Positions 2,925 through 35,055 of a stretch of DNA of 64,000 bases are shown here, one piece after another. Numbering within the stretch: position 1 is the first letter of the stretch; each line of letters begins with the position of its first letter. The translations under genes were made by a program, and so were the position numbers. The stretch covers positions 12,236,466-12,300,465 of the forward strand of contig NC_092322.1 of NCBI RefSeq assembly GCF_036785885.1. Direction: 5' to 3'. The notes beneath the pieces are model-generated. The model ran no database searches. It was not told where the DNA came from and saw only the letters and a list, made by a program, of their open reading frames with translations. Source of the DNA: Coffea arabica (taxonomy: Eukaryota; Streptophyta; Magnoliopsida; Gentianales; Rubiaceae).

Positions 2925-5152
2925 CTGCATAGGCAACAAAAACAAATCTCAGTTCACCAACCAAAGTTGTGGGGTGGAGGCTGGAGGGGAGCCAATCCAT
3001 CCAATAGTCATCTTATTCTAGTACTTTAATTGGTTCTTTAAGCTACAAATTCTCCCAGGATTTACATTTAAAATTAACATCTAGTGTACAGCAGTCCGAT
3101 AAAAAAAAAAAAAGGGAATTTTTATCCTCCCAACCATCTTAAGATCAGAAACTACAGCTGATGAAGCTGTGAACTGCAGGCACAGCTTCTGTCATCGTTT
3201 TCTTGCCAATTCAGACAAGCATTTTGCTGTTGAAAAATCCATATGATGGTGAGATTTGTTAAGATCCTGGAGAAAAGGAAAACAACCGAGAAATATTCGT
3301 CGGTTGATAAACAAAATCTATGCCTTTAGTCCTAGATCTATGTTATGTGCCTCGAAATTTCAACCCTAAATAAGTACGTGGGTTTTGGAATGAAAAAAAA
3401 GAAAAAGGATCTAACGATGGATTCACTTGCTAAAATAAGAGAAAATTAAGCGAATAACAAAATGAGGCTAAATCTAGTCAAATGAATTTCAACCGGCAGA
3501 AATCCCCATTATATTACAAAAGCACGTTGGCATGATTAACACATCAGACATCTTACCATGAAAAAACAGGCGCAAAACACATATGCTGTCAGATCACATG
3601 GTACAGGTACTATCTTAGGACTTGGGAAAATCATGATTCAGATATAGTAATAGAAGTATGTGAAGCAGAGACCACACAGGACATCAAGAGTGGGTGGAGA
3701 GGGTTACCATTACCGCGGAGAAAAATCAACAAAGTGTCCAATTGCTGTTCCTTGGAGAAGGGTTGTCAAGAATTGTCTCTGCTTTAATTGGCTTGCTTTC
3801 CACAATTTTTTTTATAGTATTCTGTCGTAGAAAACAGCAGAGCAGACAAGAGATCGAGATGGAGAGAGCTTGAATACTGTGTTAAAAATTCAATCAAGAT
3901 GCAGTAGCAAGTTTCTTTCGGATGACTGTACGAAGAATGAATAAACTACAATTCCTGATACTGGCATGTGAGCCGTGCGGAAATCAATATAAGTATATCC
4001 AATCAAAAGGGCGATCTCTTTCTTAATTAATTTCTTCTGTTGTCTCATCTTAATTCCTGTATTACCCTCTTGACCTTCATTATTTGATTTTCTTTTAGAT
4101 GTGATCAAATTTGTGCGCCCCAGTTTAGCTTCATATTCATGAGAATTATTTCCACTCAAGGACAAATATCATGGGCATTTTATCCAACTCCTTTACTAGA
4201 AATTGGGACGTGTTGATTATGTTGTATCGTGTCTAGTTATATTGGTTGTTGAACATGGCAATCTGTAGCGTACAACCTTATTATATTATTCACATATTCT
4301 AATTTATAACAATATGATATGATTGTATGCCAAACAATGTAATAAATATAATAACAGTACAGAACCGATATGTACAATCTAGTTGACCCCTTCCACCTTT
4401 ATCATTACTGTTAACAAGTAGTCTTATGATTTCATTTATTTAAGACTAGTTTACAATAACACTTTATGTTTTTTGGTCATGTAAGAAAATACAAGAATCC
4501 TTCATTATTTTGGTCTTAAGAAATGAAAAAATTAAGTAGGTAGGGAGGATTGAGTATCCGATGTCAACAACTCCATAATGGAGCAATAGATTAAACGTTT
4601 TAATGTATGCATGCACCTGTAGGGTGTGGTATAATTAAGACACAAGTTGGTATGTTCATTTGAGAAATTATAAGTTAACAATGATTTATATATATGCTAT
4701 GACAATTCGATAGGGGTAAAATTCAAGGGATCCACGTGCTTTTTTCAGTGTCGGAGTTCTGGGGTCCCTTTGGGTTGTTTTTGTTTACTGTTTAGGCACA
4801 TTTGCTCTCTCTGGTTCTCATGAACGAATGCTCTTGTACCCTGACTTTGTCTTTCAGACTTCTTCTTATCCTATACCATTTTGGGTATGATTTTTTTATG
4901 CATGCCAACATTTTTTGGTGCTTTTTGTAGTTAATTATCTCCATCCTTTTTTGGTGTTCCATGCTCAAATCTTGATTTTGAGTTCGGCTTACATTCTGGC
5001 CCCTTGAGCTTTATGACATATTTCTTTCAATAAATAATTTCATATGACAGTTCATAAGTCTTATGATCAATCAAACTGTCTTTGTATGCAACCAATCATT
5101 AAAATGCAGGTATTAAACAATTTTTATTGCTCTTATGATTTTCCCTCTTTAA

Positions 5153-5199
<47 letters not shown>

Positions 5200-5322
5200 T
5201 CCTGAAGCCAACTCACTTTGGTATGCATAGCAAGCCAAAAGGAAATAATAAGAACATCAACTTCCGCATGTGCCATATTATATTCTGGTGATGAAACATT
5301 TCAACTTGCTTCCTCTAATTTT
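2925..5322. other. Intergenic AT-rich DNA
   Basis: No gene is recognised. A 91-codon minus-strand frame (3890-4165) has no family resemblance. A (TA)n microsatellite followed by poly-T lies at about 5163-5200, 130 bp before the LTR element. Confidence 0.55.
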
Positions 5323-5327
5323 GACTC
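5323..5327. repeat. Target site duplication GACTC (left) of LTR element 1
   Basis: The same five bases GACTC occur directly outside both LTR ends (5323-5327 and 15574-15578). Ty3/gypsy integrases make 5-bp duplications, so this fixes the element ends. Confidence 0.9.
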
Positions 5328-5799
5328 TGAAGAAGCGCTGAGCTTTTCCGGACCGAGCTGAACTGATGAGTTCGGGATGCTGATGGAAGAGCTGGTCCTA
5401 ATCCTGCAAAACAAACAGGAATGAACTAGAAGAGGGGGCCCGAGGGTTGTCCCCGAGGGCACTCCGACGGTCAAATTAGTTTTCCGGTGAGTAGAGTTCA
5501 CGGGAAGTAGGAACAACCGGGAGTAATTTGCCAATAGTGAGCGTACCTTGTACAGTCGACGTGTGTTACCTTTTATACCTGCTAGGGGAGTCCGACCTCC
5601 GCACGTTCTGGGACCTGCCCAGAATAGCCCCCTATCCCGCATTCAGGGGGATCTTCCCCGACCTCTTCGGGATGGATCCTTGCCCCCTTTAGGTGCCCTA
5701 GCAGCGCGGCCCAGGACGACCGCCAGGGGCCTGGGGCCGAGGCCCAACTCGATTAGGCCTGGGCTGCCACGTGTCCAGATCCAGGACGGGGCCTCTGCA
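5328..5799 (-). repeat. 3' LTR of element 1
   Basis: 472 bp, matching 15102-15573. On the plus strand it starts TGAAGAAGCG and ends CCTCTGCA. A purine-rich AGGGGGCTAG tract (minus strand, around 5801-5811) directly abuts it and is the likely polypurine tract. Confidence 0.92.
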
Positions 5800-6276
5800 C
5801 TAGCCCCCTAGATTAGGTAGGGCTGTCAGGCAGACCTAATCTACCTTTGCCACGTGGGAGGCCAGCGCCGTGCACTACCCTGCCAAGGTCACCTCTGGTA
5901 CAGTACTGTCACAGGGACGCTGCGCCCGCGTCCTTTCAGTTGTCACGCCTCTTCGGTTTTCATACCAGCATTAAATGAGTTTATATGGGGGACGGTTCAA
6001 ATCCACGCAACCGTTTTCCCTCCACTCCTCCCCCTATAAATAGGGGTCACCAGATTTCCATCTGTTCCGTTTGCCACTTCTCCTTCCTCTTGTGCATTTT
6101 GCACTCCCATTTTCCTTGTGCATTCGCATTTCCATTTTCCAGCAACTTCCGGCGTCCCGTGCCCAGATTTCGGCGAGTCTTCCATCCTTCCTCTGCCTTG
6201 ATCATCAGTAAGTCCCTGTTGCGATTCCTTTTCCTTTTACAGTATCCCTTCTGCCTTCCGCTACCTCCTGCTTTTT

Positions 6277-9739: not shown

Positions 9740-11881
9740 TTATGGGCCCTCCCAATTTGGGTCGAGTTTGTTGGAGCTGTGAACTCGGCTAACCGAGTTC
9801 TTCCTTAGGACGAGGTCCCCCGGTTGGTACTGCACAGTCCTTACTCTGGCGTTATGATAGCGGGCGAGCTGGCTTTTGTACTTAGCCATCCGTACCGCTG
9901 CTTCTTCATGCTTAACCTCCAGCATGTCCAAGCTGTACCGCAACTCTTCTTCGTTGGTCGACGCAACGAAGTTCTGTGTCCGGGGCGAGGGGAGACTAAT
10001 CTCCGCGAGCACCACCGCCTCTACTCCGTAGGTTAAAGAGAACGGGGTCTCGTGGGTGGCCGTCCTATGCGTAGTGCGGTAAGCCCAGAGGACACTAGGG
10101 AGTTCATCCAGCCAGCTCGATTGGGCTGACTCCAACCTAGTCTTCAACCCTTGCAGAATGGTTCGGTTAGCGTTCTCCACCTGACCATTGGCCTGGGGGT
10201 GACCGACCGACGTGAAGTGCTGGTTGATCCCAAACTCGGCGCACCAGTTCCGGAAGGGGTTCTCAGCGAACCGGCGCCCGTTGTCGGATATCAAGACATG
10301 CGGGATGCCGAAGCGGCAGACAATGTTCCTCCAAAAGAATTTTTGGATTGCTCGGCCAGAGATGGTGCCCAGGGGTTCCGCTTCCATCCATTTCGTGAAG
10401 TAGTCGATGGCAACCACGAGATGCTCGTACCTTCCCAGAGCTCAGGGGAAAGGGCCTAGGAGGTCTATCCCCCATTGGGCGAAGGGCCAGGGGCTATGGA
10501 TGGGGATCATTTCCCGAGCTGGCTGGTGACGCAGTGGGGCGTGCACCTGGCAAGCTCGGCATTTCTGTACCAGTTCTGCGGCATCCCGGAAGACGGAGGG
10601 CCAATAATAGCTCGAGAGAAGGCACTTTTTGGCCAACACCCAGGACCCTACGTGCGCCGCACATATCCCTTCATGGATTTCGTGGAGGACGTAGTCCCCC
10701 TCCTCGAGAGTCACGCACTTTAGCCAGGGAGACAGGTATGACTTTCTGTAGAGGGTTCTCCCAGCGTAGGCGTACTTGGCAGCTCCGAGCTGGATTCGGC
10801 GGGTCTCGGTTTTGTTCTCAGGAAGGACACCCGAGCTGAGGTAGTCGATGAGGGGTGTCATCCAGGTGGCCGAGTTGTCTATAGCCATGACTCGAACCTG
10901 ATCGATACTTTTCTGTTTTACTACCTCTATCAGAACTTCTTTGCTCAAGTGCGTGAACGAGGAGGATGCCAGCTTCAACAGGGCGTCCGCACGCTTGTTT
11001 TGCGATCTTGGCACCCGCTCAATCTCAAAGGTATCAAATAGGGTTGTTGCCTCCTGCACCTTGGCCAGATACTTCTTCATGACCTCCTCCTTGGTCTCGT
11101 ACTCCCCGAGGACTTGGAGGACGACGAGCTGAGAATCGCTCCGAACTTGGATCGCGGTTATACCCATCTGGTGGGCTATCCACAATCCCGTGAGCAGGGA
11201 CTCGTACTCGGCCTCATTGTTGGACGCGGGGAAGTCAAATCTGAGAGTGTAGGTCACCTCTTCCCCGGTGGGTGAGATGAGTAGCAGACCCGCTCTGCTA
11301 TCTTCCTTGCTGGAGGCCCCGTCTACAAACAACACCCATGGCTCCTTCGGCCGTACCTCCTCGCGCAGGGGGCTTAGCTCGGTTAGTGTTAAACTAGCCC
11401 TCTCAGCAAGGAAGTCTGCCAGCTCGACGGCCCACATGATCATCCTACCCGAGACTTTGGGCTTGGTGAGTATCCGCCGTAGAGGCTGATCGGTTAGGAC
11501 GACGATGCTGTGGGTCTGGAAGTAAGGTCGGAGCTTCCGGGCAGCATGCACTAAAGCCAGGACTAGTTTTTCAGCTGGCGTGTACCGCATCTCCGGCCCT
11601 TGTAGAGTACGGCTGACATAGTATATTGGCCTCTGAACCCCCCTGTCCTCCCGCACCAAGATCGCGCTAACGGCTTCGTTGCAAGTAGACAAGTATAGGA
11701 ACAGGGTCTCCCCCTGCTCCGGGGCCGTCAGAGTGGGTAGCTCTGCTAAGTATGCCTTGAGATCGGCGAAGGCTTTCTGGCACTCCTCCGTCCATTGGAA
11801 ATCTCTAGGCGTTTTTAGGATGCGAAAGAAAGGCAGCCCCCGGACCGCGGAACGCGAGAGGAATCTGTTCAGGGCGGCCAT
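9740..11881 (-). mobile_element. Element 1 pol part: RNase H domains and integrase
   Basis: In element orientation the first part holds the RT-linked RNase H region (IYYVSRTLQGPEMRYTP, LVLALVHAARKLRPYF). The plant Tat/Ogre-type RNase H follows (WVLFVDGASS, SNNEAEYESLLTGL), then the integrase zinc finger (HEGICAAHVG...KCRACQ). The integrase core carries VAIDYFTKWMEAEPL and GHPQANGQVENANRTI. These are ordinary gypsy pol modules and identify the lineage. Part of a broken fossil. Confidence 0.9.
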
Positions 11882-11973
11882 CCTTCCTGTGAGCCGCTGA
11901 ACCTCCTTTACGTTCCTCGGGGGGCCATGTCCATGATGGCCTGGAGTTTATCCAAGTTGGCCCGGATCCCATC

Positions 11974-13380
11974 CTAGGATACCAAGAACCCCAGAAACCT
12001 TCCCGATCTAACCCCGAAAGTGCACTTTTTCGGATTCAATCGCATCCAACTTTCCCGCAGGATGCCAAGGATCTCCCTCAAGTCAGGGACGAGCTGCTGG
12101 TCTGTCCGGCTCTTGATGATCATGTCATCTACATAGACTTCCATGCTCCTGCCGATCTGGTTCTGGAACAGTTTGTTGACCAGGCGCTGGTAAGTGGCTC
12201 CAGCATTTTTTAAGCAAAACGGCATGGTCCGGTAACAATAGGTTCCCTCCTCGGTGATAAAGGAGGTCTTCTCCCGGTCCTCCTCAGCCATCTCTATCTG
12301 GTGGTACCCCTTGAAAGCATTCAGAAAACACAAGACATCAAAGCCTACAGTAGAATCTACTAACCTGTCGATTCTCGGCAGAGAAAAACAATCCTTTGGG
12401 CAGGCTTTGTTGAGATCCGTGAAGTCCACGCACATCCTCCAGGTCTGATCCTCCTTCTTTACCAGCACCGGGTTGGCTAACCAGGTCGGGTAGTAAACCT
12501 CCAGGATGATCTTAGACTCCAGCAGTTTTCCGACCTCCTTCTTGATCACATCGTTCCTTTCTGAGGCGAAGCTCCTCTTTTTCTGTTTGACTGGCTTGAA
12601 GCGGGAATCCACGTCGAGGTGGTGGACTGCCAGGTCGGTCGGGATCCTGAGCATGTCATCCACCGACCAAGCGAAGACCTGGGAGTATTCCCTTAACAGA
12701 GCCTTCAAGCCCTCCTTCTCCTTGGGGGGCAGCAGCGCGCTTATGCGGATCACCTGGTCTGGTCGGTTTTCCCTCAAGGGGAATTCCTAGATTTCGTCCT
12801 GAGTGCTCGGCTGCTGGGCTTCATCCCCTGGGATGTACGGCTCCAGACAGGTCGTCTAGGCGACCACCCTCTCCGGCCCGCGGAGAGTGGCCAAGTAGCA
12901 AACTCTGGCTACCTCTGGATCACCGTGCACCTCAGCTATCCCTCCTGGAGTGGGGAACATAACACTGAGATGGAGGGTAGATGAAATAGCTCGAAGGGCG
13001 TTCAGAGCTGGCCGACCCAGGAACAAGTTGTACGAGGATTGCTGTTTGACCACTACGAAGTTGACGGGGATGGTCCGGCATTTGGGGGCCTGCCCTACCG
13101 TGACCATCGGGGTGATCATTCCCTCCGGATTAATGGGCGGCCTGGTGAAGCCCACCAGAGATGTTCGAACCGGGGTCAGTTGGTCATCCTTCAATCCGAA
13201 CTCCTTGAACACCCGATAGAACATAATGTCAACCGCGCTACCTTGGTCGACATACACCTTCTTCACCCGGTAGTTGTTGGTGACAATGTCTATCACGATG
13301 GCCTCGTGGTTCTCGAACGCCAGGGGAACCGCATCCCTTGGTCCGAAGGTGATCTCCTCGTCCATGCGCAAGCGTTTCAA
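11974..13380 (-). mobile_element. Element 1 pol part: aspartic protease and reverse transcriptase
   Basis: The protease-like stretch carries VYVDQGSAVDIMF, a variant of the retroelement aspartic protease signature. The reverse transcriptase follows with WRMCVDFTDLNKACPKD, FKGYHQIEM and the YVDDM catalytic box. The order gag-PR-RT-RH-INT is that of Ty3/gypsy. Confidence 0.9.
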
Positions 13381-15056
13381 GGAGTCGTCTCCCTCGGGGG
13401 GTGGTCGCTTGTTCTTCCGATTTGCATGACTGTCCCCCCCGTGGGGCCCCCGGCGATGGTGTTTATCACTCCCGCCAAGTTCGGGGTGTCCTGGTCGGGA
13501 GAGTGGCCCCGAGGAGCGTCACGCCGCTCAGGGCGGTCGCGACGCTGTCCCTCACACCGGTCTCCATAGTAATGGCGCCCGGACTCCTGGCCCGGCCGGC
13601 CATGGCGTACGAACCGTCCCAGAAAACCGCGCTGGATCAGGTCCTCGATCTCCTTCCGTAGGGCCCAACATCCCTCCGTGTCGTGTCCCACGTCGCGGTG
13701 AAAGGCACAGTACCGGTCCTGGTTCCTCTTGTTCCGAGGTGTCCCCATCTTTGGCGGCCGATCTCCCAGCCCTTCCACCTCCATAACAGCCAAGATCTGT
13801 GCTCTAAACAGTGTCAGAGGGGTGTAACTCTTCTCCGGGAGTGGCGGCGGAGCAGGTGCCTTCTCCTTCGAGAGCCGATCAAAGACGTTCTTCTTGGTCG
13901 GGACGTCCTTGCCCTCTTGGGGGTTTGTCCGACCCTTCCGATCTCCGAGCTCCCGATCTGATTCTTTCTTCAGGCGGCCTGCCTCCTCCGCATTAGCAGC
14001 CGCGTGTGCCCGGGTTAGGAGCTCCTCAAGGTTTACGGGAGGCTTCTTGGCCAACTCGTAGAAGAGCTCCTCTACCCTGAGCCCGTTCGTGAAGGCGGCC
14101 ATTACCACTTTTTCATCTTTGTCCCTGACCTGCAAGCTCTCCGCGTTGAAGCGGGTCATAAAGTTCCCCAGCGACTCGTCGGACTTCTGCCTGATAGACA
14201 TCAGGTGGGTGGCGTTCTTCGCATAGGTCTTCGAGGAGACGAACTGGGCGACGAACTGCCTAGCCAGCTCGGGGAAACTCCGGATAGACCCTGGTGCCAA
14301 GCCTTGGAACCAGAGCCGAGCTTTCCCCTTCAGGAACATCGGGAAAGTCTTGCAGCGGATCTCGTCCGCAGCAGTTTGCAGTCGCATGTGCGTCAGGAAG
14401 ACCGAGAGGTGGTCTTCCGGGTCAGTGGAAGCGTCATACATCTCGATGCTCGAGATCTTGAACCTCCGGGGTAGGGGGTAATCCTCTATCTCCCTGGGGA
14501 AGGGCGAGGTGGAGTAGTTGTCTTCGTACAATCGCGGCCGCAAGATCTGCTCAAGCTCGTCTTGGACAGGCCTCAAGTGGAGGGGGTCGCGCGGTCGGCT
14601 CTTGGCAGACCGGGCTGGAGAGCGGTCAAGCCCATTTCGCACAGGCCTCCTCGGCGAGGGGTCCCTCGGCCTACTCCCCGCGGACCTGTAGCGGGAGTAC
14701 CTCTCGCTGTCCCCGACTACCGAGGCTCGCGGGCGAGGTGGAGTCCGTGGCCATTTCCTTCTAGGGGGTTGGTCGCGTGACTCATCCTCCGAGGGGTCGG
14801 GGAGTGGCTCTTTCTCTTTTCCCTTTGCCTTCGAGGTCTGCGGGCCTCCAGCCCCCTCCCCCTCCTTCGCCTGCCGGATGATGTCTTCCAGCATAGGGAG
14901 GTTCTCCGTCACGAACTGGAAAATCTGCTGCTTCCTTTCTCCTGAAAGGGCCGAGCCTCCGGCGCCCCGAGACACCTCAGCCTCCCTTCGCTGGGACCCC
15001 TCACCGCCTCCAGGGCCGGTGCTCTCTACCGTTCGCTTGGATCGCGTCCTGGCCAT
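13377..15056 (-). mobile_element. Element 1 gag
   Basis: Starts at MARTRSKRTVESTGP about 45 bp inside the 5' LTR. A charged Arg/Pro-rich N-terminal part precedes the gag core (MYDASTDPEDHLSVFLTHM, LWFQGL, ARQFVAQF). The C-terminal Cys/His cluster YCAFHRDVGHDTEGCWAL is typical of plant gypsy gag. It forms the particle that packages the element RNA. Confidence 0.9.
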
Positions 15057-15101
15057 CAACACAATCTTAACTACCTTACGTTTCCCACAGACGGCGCCAA
15101 C

Positions 15102-15573
15102 TGAAGAAGCGCTGAGCTTCCCCGTACCGAGCTGAACTGATGAGCTCGGGGTGCTGATGGAAGAGCTGGTCCTAAGCCTGCAAAATAAACAGGAATGAAC
15201 TAGAAGAGGGGGCCCGAGGGTTGTTCCCGAGGGCACTCCGACGGTCAAGTTAGTTTTCCGGTGAGTAGAGTTCACGGGAAGTAGGAACAACCGGGAGTAA
15301 TTTGCCAATAGTGAGCGTACCTTGTACAGTCGACGTGTGTTACCTTTTATACCTGCTAGGGGAGTCCGACCTCCGCACGTTCCGGGACCTGCCCAGAATA
15401 GCCCCCTATCCCGCATTCAGGGGGATCTTCCCCGACCTCTTCGGGATGGATCCTTGCCCCCTTTAGGTGCCCTAGCAGCGCGGCCCAGGACGATCGCCAG
15501 GGGCCTGGTGCCGAGGCCCAGCTCGGCCAGGCCTGGGCTGCCACGTGTCCAGGCCCAGGACGGGGCCTCTGCA
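15102..15573 (-). repeat. 5' LTR of element 1
   Basis: 472 bp, the partner of 5328-5799. In element orientation it starts TGCAGAGGCCCC and ends GCTTCTTCA, directly followed by the primer-binding-site-like stretch. Confidence 0.92.
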
Positions 15574-22731: not shown

Positions 22732-23024
22732 ATGGATGTTCCTGCCCTCTGTTATCAGTGGCCGATGATGAACTCCATTGACCAATCTGTTAACGAGGAC
22801 ATCCTTTTCAACCGATTCTCCTCCTCGGATCATGAGAGCTACCCAATTCATCCATCCTCCAGAATAAAGAACAAGCAACTTCATGAAGCTTCTCAAACTA
22901 GTGGCGTTAGTCTTAGCCAACCCATCCATCTCATCAACAATGACAAAGATTCGAGATTAATCTGCACATCCCGAAAGTCCTCTTCTTCTCCGTCCCCCAG
23001 AATTATTTCGTTTGGGGCTGGAAC

Positions 23025-23033
23025 CTGCAACTA
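23025..23033. repeat. 9-bp target site duplication CTGCAACTA (left)
   Basis: Identical to 24115-24123; 8-11-bp duplications are the mark of Mutator-like elements. The duplication followed by the element's first G makes an in-frame TAG in the bHLH exon. Confidence 0.9.
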
Positions 23034-23118
23034 GGGTGAATTCTTAGTTTATGATGAAAAAAAAAAGGAATTCTACAACGAGGGCGTTTCTTGGAGAGGG
23101 TTCTACAAATAGGGTGTT

Positions 23119-23218
23119 CGCATTCCGGGAATGCGAGCTCACTGACCTCGCATTCCCAAAATGCGAGCTCATTGTCCTCGCATTCCCAAAATGCAAGCTC
23201 ACTGAGCTCGCATTTAAT
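23119..23218. repeat. 30-bp tandem subterminal repeats with palindromic core in the Pack-MULE
   Basis: CGCATTCC...AATGCGAGCTCA units recur at an exact 30-bp pitch (23119, 23149, 23179, then a partial unit at 23209). The first core, GCATTCCGGGAATGC, is a palindrome. A related palindrome, CGCATTCCTGGAATGCG, lies near 24034 at the other end. Confidence 0.85.
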
Positions 23219-23256
23219 GTGATCTTCTTTTGTGTAATATGAGTTGTTTTTACGTG

Positions 23257-23905
23257 ATCTCAGGAAGATTAGAGTGCTCGATTTGATTGAGTCAGAGTTG
23301 GTAGAAGATGAAGTGGACTGGATTTCATGTTTTCCACAGAATGGAACTTGTCTCGAGTCTTTGATATTTGACTGTGTGGACTCCCCTATTAATTTTGAGG
23401 CATTGGAGAGACTTGTGGTTAAGTCACCGTCTTTGAAGAAGCTTAGATTGAATCGACATGTAACAATTGTGCAGCTCTATCGTTTGATGGTTCGAGCTCC
23501 ACAGCTCACCCACTTGAGAACTGGTTCATTTGGCCCCGGAGAGATTGTTGCTCAGGGTGAACAGGAGCCAGACTATGTTTCTGCTTTTGCTGCATGCAAA
23601 TCTCTAGTTTGCCTTTCTGGATTCAGAGAAATCAATGCTCATTATCTGCCTGCAATAGTTCCGGTGTGTGCTAACCTTACCTCTCTGAATCTTAGCTACG
23701 CCACAATCAGTACTGAACAACTGAAATCCTTTATCTATCATTGCCATAAGCTCCAGACTTTGTGGGTAAGTAAATGGAATTTCCGTTTGAATGTTGATTC
23801 TGTCAATCTTTTGGTTTTCCTTACCCTTGATTTATGCAGGTGCTTGACTCGGTATGCGATGAAGGACTGCAGGCAGTGGCTGCAACATGTAAAGATCTCC
23901 ATGAG
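23257..23905 (+). pseudogene. Captured fragment of a TIR1/AFB F-box LRR auxin receptor (AFB2/3-like)
   Basis: A CTCAG acceptor ends a captured intron piece. An open exon follows at 23262-23765 encoding LRR sequence such as [53 protein letters not shown] and [23 protein letters not shown] donor and a 74-bp intron come next, then a TTTATGCAG acceptor and a second exon piece from 23840 ([20 protein letters not shown]). Similarity stops near 23905, where transposon sequence resumes. The first exon keeps its frame with no internal stop. TIR1/AFB proteins are the F-box subunits of SCF complexes that bind auxin and Aux/IAA proteins. This fragment has neither the F-box nor the C-terminal LRRs, so it cannot be a receptor. 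Retained introns show that capture was from DNA, not from an mRNA. Confidence 0.85.
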
Positions 23906-24114
23906 CCAGTGCAGGTGTCATTTGGGAGAGATTAAATTCCCAAAGCTTAAATTTGCGAATGCGAGCTCTCTTGCCCTCCGAAAAAAAAAATGGCGAAAAA
24001 TTCTGCTAAGCTCGCATTCCTGGAATGCGAAAGACCGCCCTACAAAATACCTCACCAAAATCACCCCTTTTGTAGAATTTTTTTAAATTTCATCACAAAC
24101 TTGGAAATTTCTCC

Positions 24115-24123
24115 CTGCAACTA
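24115..24123. repeat. 9-bp target site duplication CTGCAACTA (right)
   Basis: Exact copy of 23025-23033. The bHLH frame resumes here (CTGCAACTACCCAAA). Confidence 0.9.
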
Positions 24124-25170
24124 CCCAAAACACACTGTCAAGACCAAGTCAGATAAGATGATGCATCTTGGAACTGCATACTACTCTTATATATCTCCCA
24201 ATTCCTTTAATCAGGAACCATCTGAAGCTCTAGAATATGGTGTCAGCAGCCCCTTTGAAAAGGGTTTCTCTGGGACACCCGTGCGGGCTCAAGATCACAT
24301 TTTAGCAGAAAGGAAACGACGACAAAAGCTGTCCAACCATATCGCTGCTTTATCAGCTGTAGTTCCTGACTTAAAGAAAGTGAGTGAGATTAGAAGTAGC
24401 TGAGATCTATTGTTTGTTTATTGTGACAGGGTAAAGATTTCTTCGGAATAATATTTGTTCATACTTACACATTATATTGTAGGTAACAATGATATTGTGA
24501 GTATTAAAATAATTCAATTTATAACACATTGGAGTCTATCACTTTTTGTTTCACTTTCAGTTGGTTTCACTAGTTACAATGAGTTCCTATTCCTCTATTC
24601 CTCTCTTGTATAGATTGTTAGGCCAAAAGATTTTGTCATTCATCTATTTAATAACAAGGTCATACAACACATAACTACAACGACAAAATATGTGCTAGCT
24701 AGTGATTGTGAATCCGGGAATGAACTTGAAGCTGAGAGAACTAATTAATTAGTCACTAGAACAAGATGACTACAATGGAATGGCTTTTCCTAGCTTGGGT
24801 TGGTGCACTGAGATTTTTTTTGTTTGGCATGCAGTTGGACAAGGCTTCTGTGCTTGGAGGTGCTGTAAAGCATATAAAACAGCTCGACAAACGAGTCAAG
24901 TTTTTCGAGAAAGAAGAGAAAAAGAGGAATCAGCCGGAGGAATTGCTTGTTTCTGCAATGAAGAAACCTCGTCCTAATAACGACAATTCATCTTCATCCG
25001 CGGAGAACGTCTCTAATAACAGCAGCTGTGATCATCACTCCTCATCATCTGTTGAGGTTCAAGTAACAAGCTCAGGAGGTGATATGCTAATCAAAATCGA
25101 ATGCAAGTCCTTGTCCTTGTCCAGAATATGGAAACTGAAAAAGAAGAAAATTTTTGAATATATCTATTGA

Positions 25171-30688: not shown

Positions 30689-32196
30689 ATGGCCAGGACG
30701 CGATCCAAGCGCACGATAGAGAGCACCGGCCCTGGGGGCGGTGAGGGGTCCCCGCGGAAGGAGGCTGAGGCGTCTCAGGGAGCCGGGGGATCAGCCCTCT
30801 CAGGGGAACGGAGGCAGCAGATCTTCCAGTTCGTGACGGAGAATCTCCCCATGCTGGAGGACATAATTCGACAGGCGAAGGAGGGAGATGGGGCTGGGGG
30901 TGCGTAGACTTCCAAGGCCAAGGGGAAGGAGAAAGAGTTACCCCCTGACCCTTCGGAGGATGAGTCCCGAGACCAGCCCCCAGAAGGAAACGACCACGAA
31001 CTCCACCTCGCCCGCGAGCCTCGGTGGTCGGAGACAGCGAGAGGTATCCCCGCGACCGGTCCGCGAGGAGCCGTCCGAGAGACCCCTCCTCACGGAAGCC
31101 CGCACGAAATGGGCTCGAGCGTTCCCCTGCTCGGTCCGTCAAGAGCCGACCCCGGGACCTCCTTCATTTGGACCTTGCTCGGGATGAGCTCGAGCAGATC
31201 TTGAGGCCCCGGCAGTACGAGGACAACTACGCAATCTCGCCTTTTACCCGGGAGATAGAGGACTACCCCCTACCCCGGAGGTTTAAAATTTCGAGCATCG
31301 AGATGTACGATACCTCTACAGATCCGGAGGACCACCTTTCGGTCTTCTTGACGCATATGCGCCTGCAAACCGCCGCGGATGAGGTCCGCTGCAAGACCTT
31401 CCCTATGTTCCTAAAGGGGAAGGCGCGGCTCTGGTTCCAGGGGCTGAAACCGGGGTCTATACGGAGCTTTCCTGAGCTGGCCCGGCAGTTTGCAACCCAA
31501 TTCGTCTCCTCGAAGGTCTACGCGAGGAACGCAACTCACCTGATGTCCATCAGACAGAGGCCCGATGAGTCGCTGAGGAATTTCATGACCCGTTTCAACG
31601 CGGAGAGCCTGCAGGTCAGGGACAAAGACGAAAAAGTGGTCATGGCCGCCTTCACAAATGGGCTCAGGGTAGAGGAGCTCTTCTACGACCTGGCCAAGAA
31701 GCCTCCCGTAAACCTGGAGGAGCTCTTACGCAGGGCGCATGAGGCCGCTAATGCGGAGGAGGCAGGTCGTCTGAAGAAAGAATCAGATCGGGAGCTCGGA
31801 GATCGGAAAGGTCGGACAAACCCCCCAGAGGGCAAGGACGTCCCGTCCAAGAAAAACGTCTTCGACCGGCTCTCGAAGGAGAAGGCCCCTGCTCTGGCGC
31901 CACTCCTAGAGGAGACCTACACCCTTCTAACACGGCCCAGAGCCCAGATCTTGGCGGTTATGGAGGCGGAAGGACTGGGAGATCGGCCGCCCAAGATGGG
32001 GACGCCCCGGAACAAAAGGAACCAGGACAGGTACTGCGCCTTTCACCGCGACGCCGGGCACGACACGGAGGGATGCTGGGCCCTGCGTAAGGAGATAGAA
32101 GACCTGATCCAGCGCGGCTTTCTAGGGAGATTCGTGCGCCGACTAGGTCAGGAGTTCGGGCGCAACCACTACGGAGATAGGCACGAGGGACGGTGA
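30689..32196 (+). mobile_element. Element 2 gag
   Basis: Begins MARTRSKRTIESTGPGGG, as in element 1. It carries the gag core (MYDTSTDPEDHLSVFLTHM, LWFQGL) and the Cys/His cluster YCAFHRDAGHDTEGCWAL. Fossil part. Confidence 0.88.
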
Positions 32197-32357
32197 CGCG
32201 ACCGCCCTGAGCGGCGTGACGCTCCTCGGGGCCACTCTCCCGACCAGGACACCCAGAACCTGGCGGGAGTGATAAACACCATCGCCGGAGGCCCCACGGG
32301 GGGGACAGCCATGCAGCTCGGAAGAACAAGCGACCACCCCCCGAAGGGGACGACTCC

Positions 32358-35055
32358 TTGAAGCGCTTGCGCATGGACGAGGAGATTACCTTCGGACCAA
32401 GGGATGCGGTCCCCCCGGCTTCCGGGAACCACGAGACCATCGTGATAGACATTGTTACCAACAACTACCGGGTGAAGAAGGTGTATGTCGACCAGGGTAG
32501 CGCGGTGGACATTATGTTCTATCGGGCGTTCAAGGAGCTCGGATTAAGGGATGACCAGCTGACCCCGGTCCGGACGCCTTTGGTGGGCTTCACCGGACCA
32601 CCCATCAGCTCGGAAGGGATGATCACCCTGATGGTCACAGTAGGACAGGCTCCCAAATGCCGGACCGTTCCCGTTAACTTCGTGGTGGTCAAGCAGTCGT
32701 CCCCGTACAATGTGTTTTTGGGGAGACCTGCTTTAAACGCCCTCCGGGCTATTCCCTCTACCTTCCACCTCAGCGTCAAGTTCCCACCCCTGGAGGGATA
32801 GCCGAGGTGCGCGGCGACCCAGAGGTAACCAGGGCTTGCTACCTGGCCACGCTCCGGGGGCAGGAGAAGGTGGTCGCCCAGACAACCTGTTTGGAGCCCT
32901 ACATCCCAGGAGATGAGGCCCAACAGTTGGGCACCCAAGATGAGATTGAGGAGTTCCCCCTAAGGAAGGATCGGCCCGATCAGGTCATCCGCATCGGGGC
33001 ATTGCTGCCAGCCGAGGAGAAGGAAGGCTTGAAGGCCTTGTTGAGAGAGTACTCTCAGGTCTTCGCATGGACGGTGGAGGACATGCCTGGGATCCCTACA
33101 GACCTGGCAGTCCATCACCTCGACGTGGACCCTAACTTCAAACCAGTGAAGCAGAAGAAAAGGAGCTTTGCCCCCGAGAGGAATGAGGTGATCAAGGCGG
33201 AGATTGGCAAGTTGCTGGAGTCCAAGATCATCCTGGAGGTCTACTACCCGACCTGGCTGGACAATAGTCTGGTCAGGAAGGACGACCAGACCTGGAGGAT
33301 GTGCGTAGACTTCACAGACCTTAACAAAGCCTGCCCGAAGGACTGCTTTCCCCTACCTAGAATCGACAGGTTAGTAGACTTTACTGTGAGTTTTGACGTT
33401 TTGTGTTTCCTGGATGCCTTTAAGGGATATCACCAGATAGAGATGGCTAAGGAGGATCGGGACAAGACCTCTTTTATCACCGAGGAGGGAACCTACTGCT
33501 ACAGGACCATGCCGTTCGGGTTGAAGAACGCGGGAGCCACTTACCAGCGCCTGGTCAACAAGTTGTTCCAAAACCAGATCGGCAGAAGCATGGAGGTCTA
33601 TGTCGATGACATGATCGTCAAAAGTCGAACTGACCAGCGGCTCATACCCGACCTGCGGGAGATCTTGGACATCCTACTGAAGAGCCGGATGCGCTTAAAT
33701 CCGAAGAAGTGCACCTTTGGGGTCAGATCGGGAAGGTTTCTCGGTTTCCTGGTGTCCCGAGACGGAATCCGGGCCAACCCGGATAAGCTACAGGCTATCA
33801 TAGACATGGCTCTTCCAAGGAACGTGAAGGAAGTCCAGCGGCTCACAGGGAGAATGGCCGCCCTGAGTAGGTTCCTCTCGCGCTCCGCGGTCAGGGGCTG
33901 CTCTTCTTTCGAGTGCTGAAAGCGCCTAAGGACTTTCACTGGACGGAGGAGTGCCAGAAAGCCTTCACCGACCTGAAGGCCTATCTGGCTGAGTTGCCCA
34001 CTTTGACCGCCCCGGAGCTAGGAGAGACTCTGTTCCTTTACCTGTCCGCCTGCAACGAGGCCATCAGCGCGGTCTTGGTGCGGGAGGACGGGGGGGCTCA
34101 GAGACCGATGTACTACATTAGCCGCGCCCTACAGGGGCCAGAGACGAGGTACACGCCCGTGGAAAAGCTGGTCCTTGCCTTGGTACACGCCGCTCGCAAG
34201 CTCCGCCCTTACTTCCAAGCTCACAGCATCGTAGTCCTGACCGACCAGCCCTTGCGCCAGATCCTCACTAAGCCCGAGGTCTCGGGCAGGATGACCAAGT
34301 GGTCCGTCGAACTGGCCGAGCATGACCTCACTTATCGGCCTCGCACCGCGATCAAGGCTCAGGCCTTGGCAGACTTCCTTGCTGAGGGGGCTGACTTGAA
34401 CCTGACCGAGTTAGCCCCGACACCCCCGGACACCCCGGCTGAGGAGCCGTGGGTGCTGTTCGTGGATGGCGCCTCGAGCAAGGAAGGGAGCGGAGCTGAC
34501 CTGCTGCTCACCTCGCCCACGGGGGAAGAACTGACCTATGCGCTTAGGTTCGACTTCCCTGCGTCCAACAACGAGGCAGAGTACGAGGCCCTGTTGACGG
34601 GGTTGCGGATAGCCTACCAGATGGGCATCACCGCGATCCGGGTTCGAAGCGACTCTCAGCTCGTCGTCCTCCAAATCCGTGGGGAGTATGAGGCCAAGGA
34701 CGAGGTAATGAAGAAATACCTGGCTAAGGTACAAGAGGCGATAGCCCTGTTCGAGACCTTTGAGATTGAGCGGGTGCCGAGATCCCAAAACAAGCGCGCG
34801 GACGCCTTGTCCAAGCTGGCGTCCTCCTCGTTCGCCCACCTGAGCAAGGAGGTCTTGGTAGAGGTGGTGAAGCAGAAAAGTATCGACCAGGTCCGGGTCC
34901 TAACGATAGACAGCTCGGCCACTTGGATGGCTCCCCTCGTTGACTTCCTCAGCTCGGGTGCCCTCCCGGAGAACAAAATCGAGGCTCGCCGAATCCATCT
35001 TCGAGCTGCCAAATACGCCTACGCCGAGGGAACCCTCTACAGGAGGTCGGCATAA
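32358..35055 (+). mobile_element. Element 2 pol region: protease, reverse transcriptase, RNase H
   Basis: Protease-like VYVDQGSAVDIMF, then RT with WRMCVDFTDLNKACPKD, FKGYHQIEM and YVDDM. Next come the RT-linked RNase H (YYISRALQGPETRYTP) and the Tat/Ogre-type RNase H (WVLFVDGASSKEGSG, SNNEAEYEALLTGL). The modules are closely similar to those of element 1 but on the opposite strand. Confidence 0.88.

Follow-up and report, generated by a model that had tools for sequence, protein, structure and literature searches.

The window, by which we mean the whole stretch of 64,000 nucleotides that was analyzed (G000:C13:12236466-12300465), comes from a 1.198-Gb assembly of Coffea arabica in 131 contigs, all of which was searched. 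It contains a bHLH gene whose first exon is interrupted by an element of 1,080 bp (23034-24113, + strand). The contigs form adjacent pairs, namely C13/C14, C19/C20, C9/C10, C17/C18 and C15/C16, and C13 and C14 probably represent Chr7c and Chr7e of C. arabica, respectively. A primer pair for caffeine synthase 1 (PMC2629470) gives its exact 68-bp product at two of six loci fetched with the reverse primer, which indicates Coffea. That reverse primer matches C1 once and C2 three times, a pattern similar to the single DXMT of Chr1c and the duplicated DXMT of Chr1e (two copies) described in PMC10805892. Elsewhere in the window, long open frames at 9740-15416 and 30964-35055 resemble gag-pol and belong to what we take to be two LTR retrotransposon copies. 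Within the window, neither a search against Rfam at gathering thresholds nor a tRNA scan returned a match. The features of the locus are as follows (no strand is given for those without orientation):

22732..23033, +: bHLH exon 1, 5' part; 100 codons, then TAG
23024..23033: left target-site duplication, CCTGCAACTA; present once where C14 has no element
23032..23034, +: TAG stop, formed by the end of the duplication and the first element base
23034..24113, +: Pack-MULE-type element, 1080 bp; ends common to eight copies
23034..23139, +: left terminal inverted repeat of ~106 bp, matching the right end at 72%
23118..23214: subterminal 30-bp palindromic repeats; number differs among copies
23217..23906, +: 690 bp captured from an AFB4/5-type gene; differs from the C19 and C20 genes at 9 and 12 positions, respectively
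23217..23263, +: 3' end of the parent's preceding intron, acceptor included
23264..23765, +: part of a parent exon, in the LRR region (TIR1 residues ~158-319)
23766..23839, +: captured intron of 74 bp, complete
23840..23906, +: part of the next parent exon, up to about TIR1 residue 342
23905..23923, +: remnant of earlier (group I) cargo, 19 bp; overlaps the AFB piece by its first 2 bp
23990..24379, +: open frame from an ATG in the right end; in register with bHLH exon 1, which it reaches after 42 codons
24009..24113, -: right terminal inverted repeat, from local alignment with the left end
24114..24123: right target-site duplication, CCTGCAACTA; from comparison with the sister copies and the C14 site
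24124..24379, +: bHLH exon 1, 3' part; start of the HLH domain (Pfam HLH, E-value 7.5e-5, above cut-off)
24835..25170, +: bHLH exon 2; 3' end altered
25107..25113: site of a missing ~350 bp, present on C14 with C-terminal coding sequence

The interrupted bHLH gene and its empty partner

A sequence-only reading of this DNA had placed a Pack-MULE with an auxin-receptor (AFB) fragment inside the bHLH gene, and had described long imperfect inverted ends and exact 9-bp duplications. Both the element, situated within a bHLH exon and carrying the AFB piece, and its ends were confirmed. In local alignment the imperfect inverted ends extend over approximately 106 bp at 72% identity, with a score of 60; this was reached by none of 444 random window pairs (500 drawn, of which 56 near the element were excluded), their maximum being 34. 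The duplication is exact as claimed, and its length required correction: because the right end of the sister copies is CTC, the element ends at 24113 and the duplication (23024-23033 and 24114-24123) measures 10 bp, not 9. The 1080 bp comprise the ends, the repeats, the AFB piece and a short remnant, with no transposase. The number of the 30-bp palindromic subterminal repeats is variable (23118-23214 in the window and the corresponding part of L002-L008), while the cargo is nearly constant.

On C14, the bHLH gene at the insertion site reads GGGACCTGCAACTACCCAAAAC, that is, one copy of the duplication and no element. The bHLH genes of C14 and C13 share 96% identity on the upstream side of this site and 99% on its downstream side, and the C13 and C14 stretches compared are 94-99% identical. 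An average identity of 94.9% between the collinear subgenomes of C. arabica is given in the portion of PMC10805892 available to us. In total, three insertions have empty partner sites, namely those on C13 (partner on C14), C17 (two on C18) and C16 (on C15). The two C18 sites that correspond to the C17 copy (L037 and L038) lie approximately 9.5 kb apart.

When the flanks were joined by script, the exon read open for 186 codons; in the presence of the element, a TAG is met at codon 101. None of eight donor-acceptor combinations tried inside the element avoids this stop, and a simple consensus scan of the exon revealed no host donor upstream of it. There is a second lesion, since the C13 copy lacks approximately 350 bp which on C14 carry C-terminal coding sequence. 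On C14 the gene reads open through all three exons. The insertion would have abolished the C13 copy, and the C14 copy presumably covers the bHLH function.

Two further observations concern the C14 gene. Its first intron contains approximately 1.35 kb more than that of the window copy (L029, ~4674-6026). In addition, a second, inverted bHLH paralog (74%) was located about 30 kb away (L030, C14:14003000-14010000); the search gave no counterpart of this paralog on C13.

The captured auxin-receptor piece

TIR1/AFB-like LRR coding sequence with an intron, captured from DNA and lying in sense with the bHLH gene, had been proposed from the letters of the window, and a genome search for its parent had been suggested; the proposed features were borne out. 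The piece of 690 bp (23217-23906) is in sense with the bHLH gene and has kept its splice sites. Since it retains a complete 74-bp intron (23766-23839) and the end of the preceding intron, capture from DNA is indicated. The search located the parent genes on C19 and C20, to which the captured 690 bp are 98.7% and 98.3% identical, respectively. L006, a copy with no private coding change, differs at 5 of 690 positions from the C19 gene and at 8 of 690 from the C20 gene, in a comparison that contained no outgroup.

The parent gene is open across three exons. The auxin-pocket residues of TIR1 are listed as 78, 403, 438, 462 and 487 in the part of PMC9745157 at hand, where Arg in place of TIR1 His78 and Ala in place of TIR1 Ser438 are also given as the AFB4/5 signature. 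By hand count on the alignment, the parent gene has Arg at the former position and Ala at the latter. Judged by its sequence, the parent is an AFB4/5-type auxin-receptor gene of the C19/C20 pair. AFB2/3 had been considered as the parent and was dropped after the gene had been read and aligned with TIR1. The captured piece covers only TIR1 residues ~158-342, and includes neither the F-box nor the pocket residues listed above. One core pattern of the miR393 site is absent from the element; as the same pattern is missing from both parent genes, this absence carries little weight.

Sister copies and the wider family

The genome contains eight full-length copies of the element, 87-100% identical along their length. 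A protein search of the genome gave 21 matches, which are the eight copies, the two genes and eleven sequences at no more than 47% identity. The capture borders are identical in all eight copies, which also have in common three differences from both parent genes; this points to a single capture followed by amplification. Element-specific differences are located at 23348, 23468 and 23489. The seven other copies represent six other insertions carrying the same AFB fragment. Target duplications were seen in six of the eight copies, corresponding to five insertions, and are 9-11 bp long in the five copies other than that of the window; L006 and L008 showed none. A single duplication, AACATGGTTT, flanks both the C9 and the C10 copy, so that the two are one insertion that either pre-dates the split of the pair or was copied between its members. 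When the flanks of the seven other copies were joined, no locus but L011 (61 codons) and L017 (114) showed a frame of at least 60 codons, in a test that is blind to short exons. L004 sits in a repeat that has a 99% sister 7.2 kb away, and a further left end of the family lies approximately 0.8 kb from the L006 copy (L006, 496-679).

Across the eight copies, the changes that followed capture comprise 15 nonsynonymous and 6 synonymous substitutions and no stops. Random placement of the same changes gave an expectation of 6.0 synonymous ones, and no stop arose in 28% of 5,000 draws. The AFB fragment evolves neutrally, with no sign of selection at the protein level, in a test that is weak with 21 changes.

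The family extends beyond the AFB-carrying copies. A search for the element ends at other loci had been suggested as a check, and the left end's outer 25 bp gave 240 matches in the genome at up to two mismatches (reversed control, 0). Two findings had been named beforehand as contrary to the Pack-MULE reading, ends occurring at no other locus and an AFB gene annotated across this site in relatives with no flanking bHLH sequence. Neither was made, the outer left end matching 240 places and the C14 site being bHLH with no AFB. Eleven further members were fetched. Five carry a piece designated group I, four a NOG1-like piece (one translation reaching a Pfam E-value of 1.2e-4, below the curated cut-off), one a GRDP-like piece (Pfam E-value 6.2e-8), and one another piece. 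The group I cargo has its source on the C9/C10 pair, and of its eight genome matches six fall within elements, the remaining two marking the source.

The 19-bp remnant at the AFB junction derives from this group I cargo. It has both substitutions that separate the group I element L018 from the C9/C10 source at this place, and it is present in the alignment of all eight AFB copies. It shows that an older passenger gave way to the AFB piece. Perhaps break repair with template switching took place, which would explain the exchange of cargo.

The hunt for a transposase bearing these ends was negative: a PF10551 search and four fetched transposase loci gave no convincing match, and among 100 of the 240 ends and 150 scored of 2147 candidates, the nearest end and transposase are separated by 6.7 kb and have the wrong orientation. 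Since this partial search found no transposase with matching ends, the assignment to the Mutator-like elements rests on the ends and on the length of the duplication.

Interpretation and comparison with known elements

A non-autonomous, gene-carrying Mutator-like element (Pack-MULE) very probably inserted here, and we propose that one bHLH homoeolog was lost through an ordinary element of this type. In this reading, a member of the family, already loaded with a piece of another locus, exchanged most of this cargo for 690 bp of genomic DNA of an AFB4/5-type receptor gene. The new AFB element then multiplied to eight copies in the genome, one of which jumped into exon 1 of the C13 bHLH gene. Mobilization may have relied on a Mutator-type transposase supplied in trans.

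That two genes were joined by an assembly artefact is highly improbable, given that the duplication is exact, that eight loci carry the element and that three of them have precise empty sites, all within one assembly. Capture by way of RNA, either as a retrogene or through transduction by a retrotransposon, is scarcely conceivable, for an intron of 74 bp is retained whole, together with the end of the one before it, and the inverted ends and empty sites likewise oppose it. The element might instead supply a new start, the ATG at 23990 leading through 42 codons into the bHLH domain to give an N-terminally altered protein. This frame is open and in register, and in the alignment both this ATG and the extra A downstream are absent from the seven other copies. 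Chance alone would put one frame in three in register, however, stops lie upstream in all three frames, a putative promoter is without support, and the C-terminal coding sequence is missing from the C13 copy, all of which makes such a protein very unlikely.

A regulatory link through RNA deserves somewhat more attention, although we still regard it as improbable. Here a chimeric AFB transcript from the bHLH promoter, or small RNAs from the eight copies, would regulate the AFB4/5 gene. The AFB piece is in sense with its splice sites kept, its 690 bp are close enough to the two parent genes (98.7% and 98.3% identity) for perfect small-RNA matches, and reports from maize, in the portion of PMC13317346 accessible to us, lend the transcript and siRNA idea plausibility. 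Against a special link between the bHLH and AFB genes, the C13 bHLH copy is broken twice, its frame ends at the element border, and the AFB fragment also occurs in seven other copies, so that such RNA would be independent of the bHLH gene. The fragment has neither the F-box nor the listed pocket residues. The neutral substitution pattern also speaks against the idea, though it bears on protein and not on RNA function. That the eight near-identical AFB4/5 pieces, one of them in sense in a bHLH gene, yield small RNAs tuning the AFB4/5 pair is a slighter prospect again; if true, a single capture would have created a trans link in an allopolyploid.

Returning to the insertion of an ordinary Pack-MULE, we note that the parent gene, the older cargo, the amplified copies and the empty partner sites are all visible within one assembly. 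This makes the locus a compact case of gene capture by a transposon in a genome with paired chromosomes, where one copy of a transcription-factor gene pair is broken and the other remains open. The element is a clear example of an already known kind and not a new kind. Among the titles listed in the literature searches, none dealt with an AFB-carrying Pack-MULE or with Pack-MULEs of coffee.

Target-site duplications of Pack-MULEs are approximately 8-11 bp long and those of CACTA elements 3 bp. The Pack-MULEs of rice were reportedly described by Jiang et al. in 2004, and the title of a report on a soybean CACTA transposon with gene fragments (PMC1947982) announces alternative splicing of these fragments. 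The soybean transposon shares gene-fragment cargo with the coffee element but belongs to another superfamily, and the duplications of 9-11 bp separate the coffee element from Pack-CACTA. According to the sections of PMC8903248 available, Pack-CACTA and other Pack-TYPE elements also have gene-fragment cargo and inverted ends. The likeness to the Pack-MULEs of rice, as they are portrayed in the available parts of PMC8903248 and PMC13317346, extends to non-autonomy, inverted ends and duplications of about 9-11 bp, and, for Pack-MULEs as described there, to intron-bearing fragments of genomic genes, several cargo types per family and several copies per capture. Compared with these same accounts, the coffee element differs in that a transposase with matching ends was not found in our partial search, that its insertion hits one of two homoeologous genes, and that the replacement of its cargo can be read from a 19-bp remnant.
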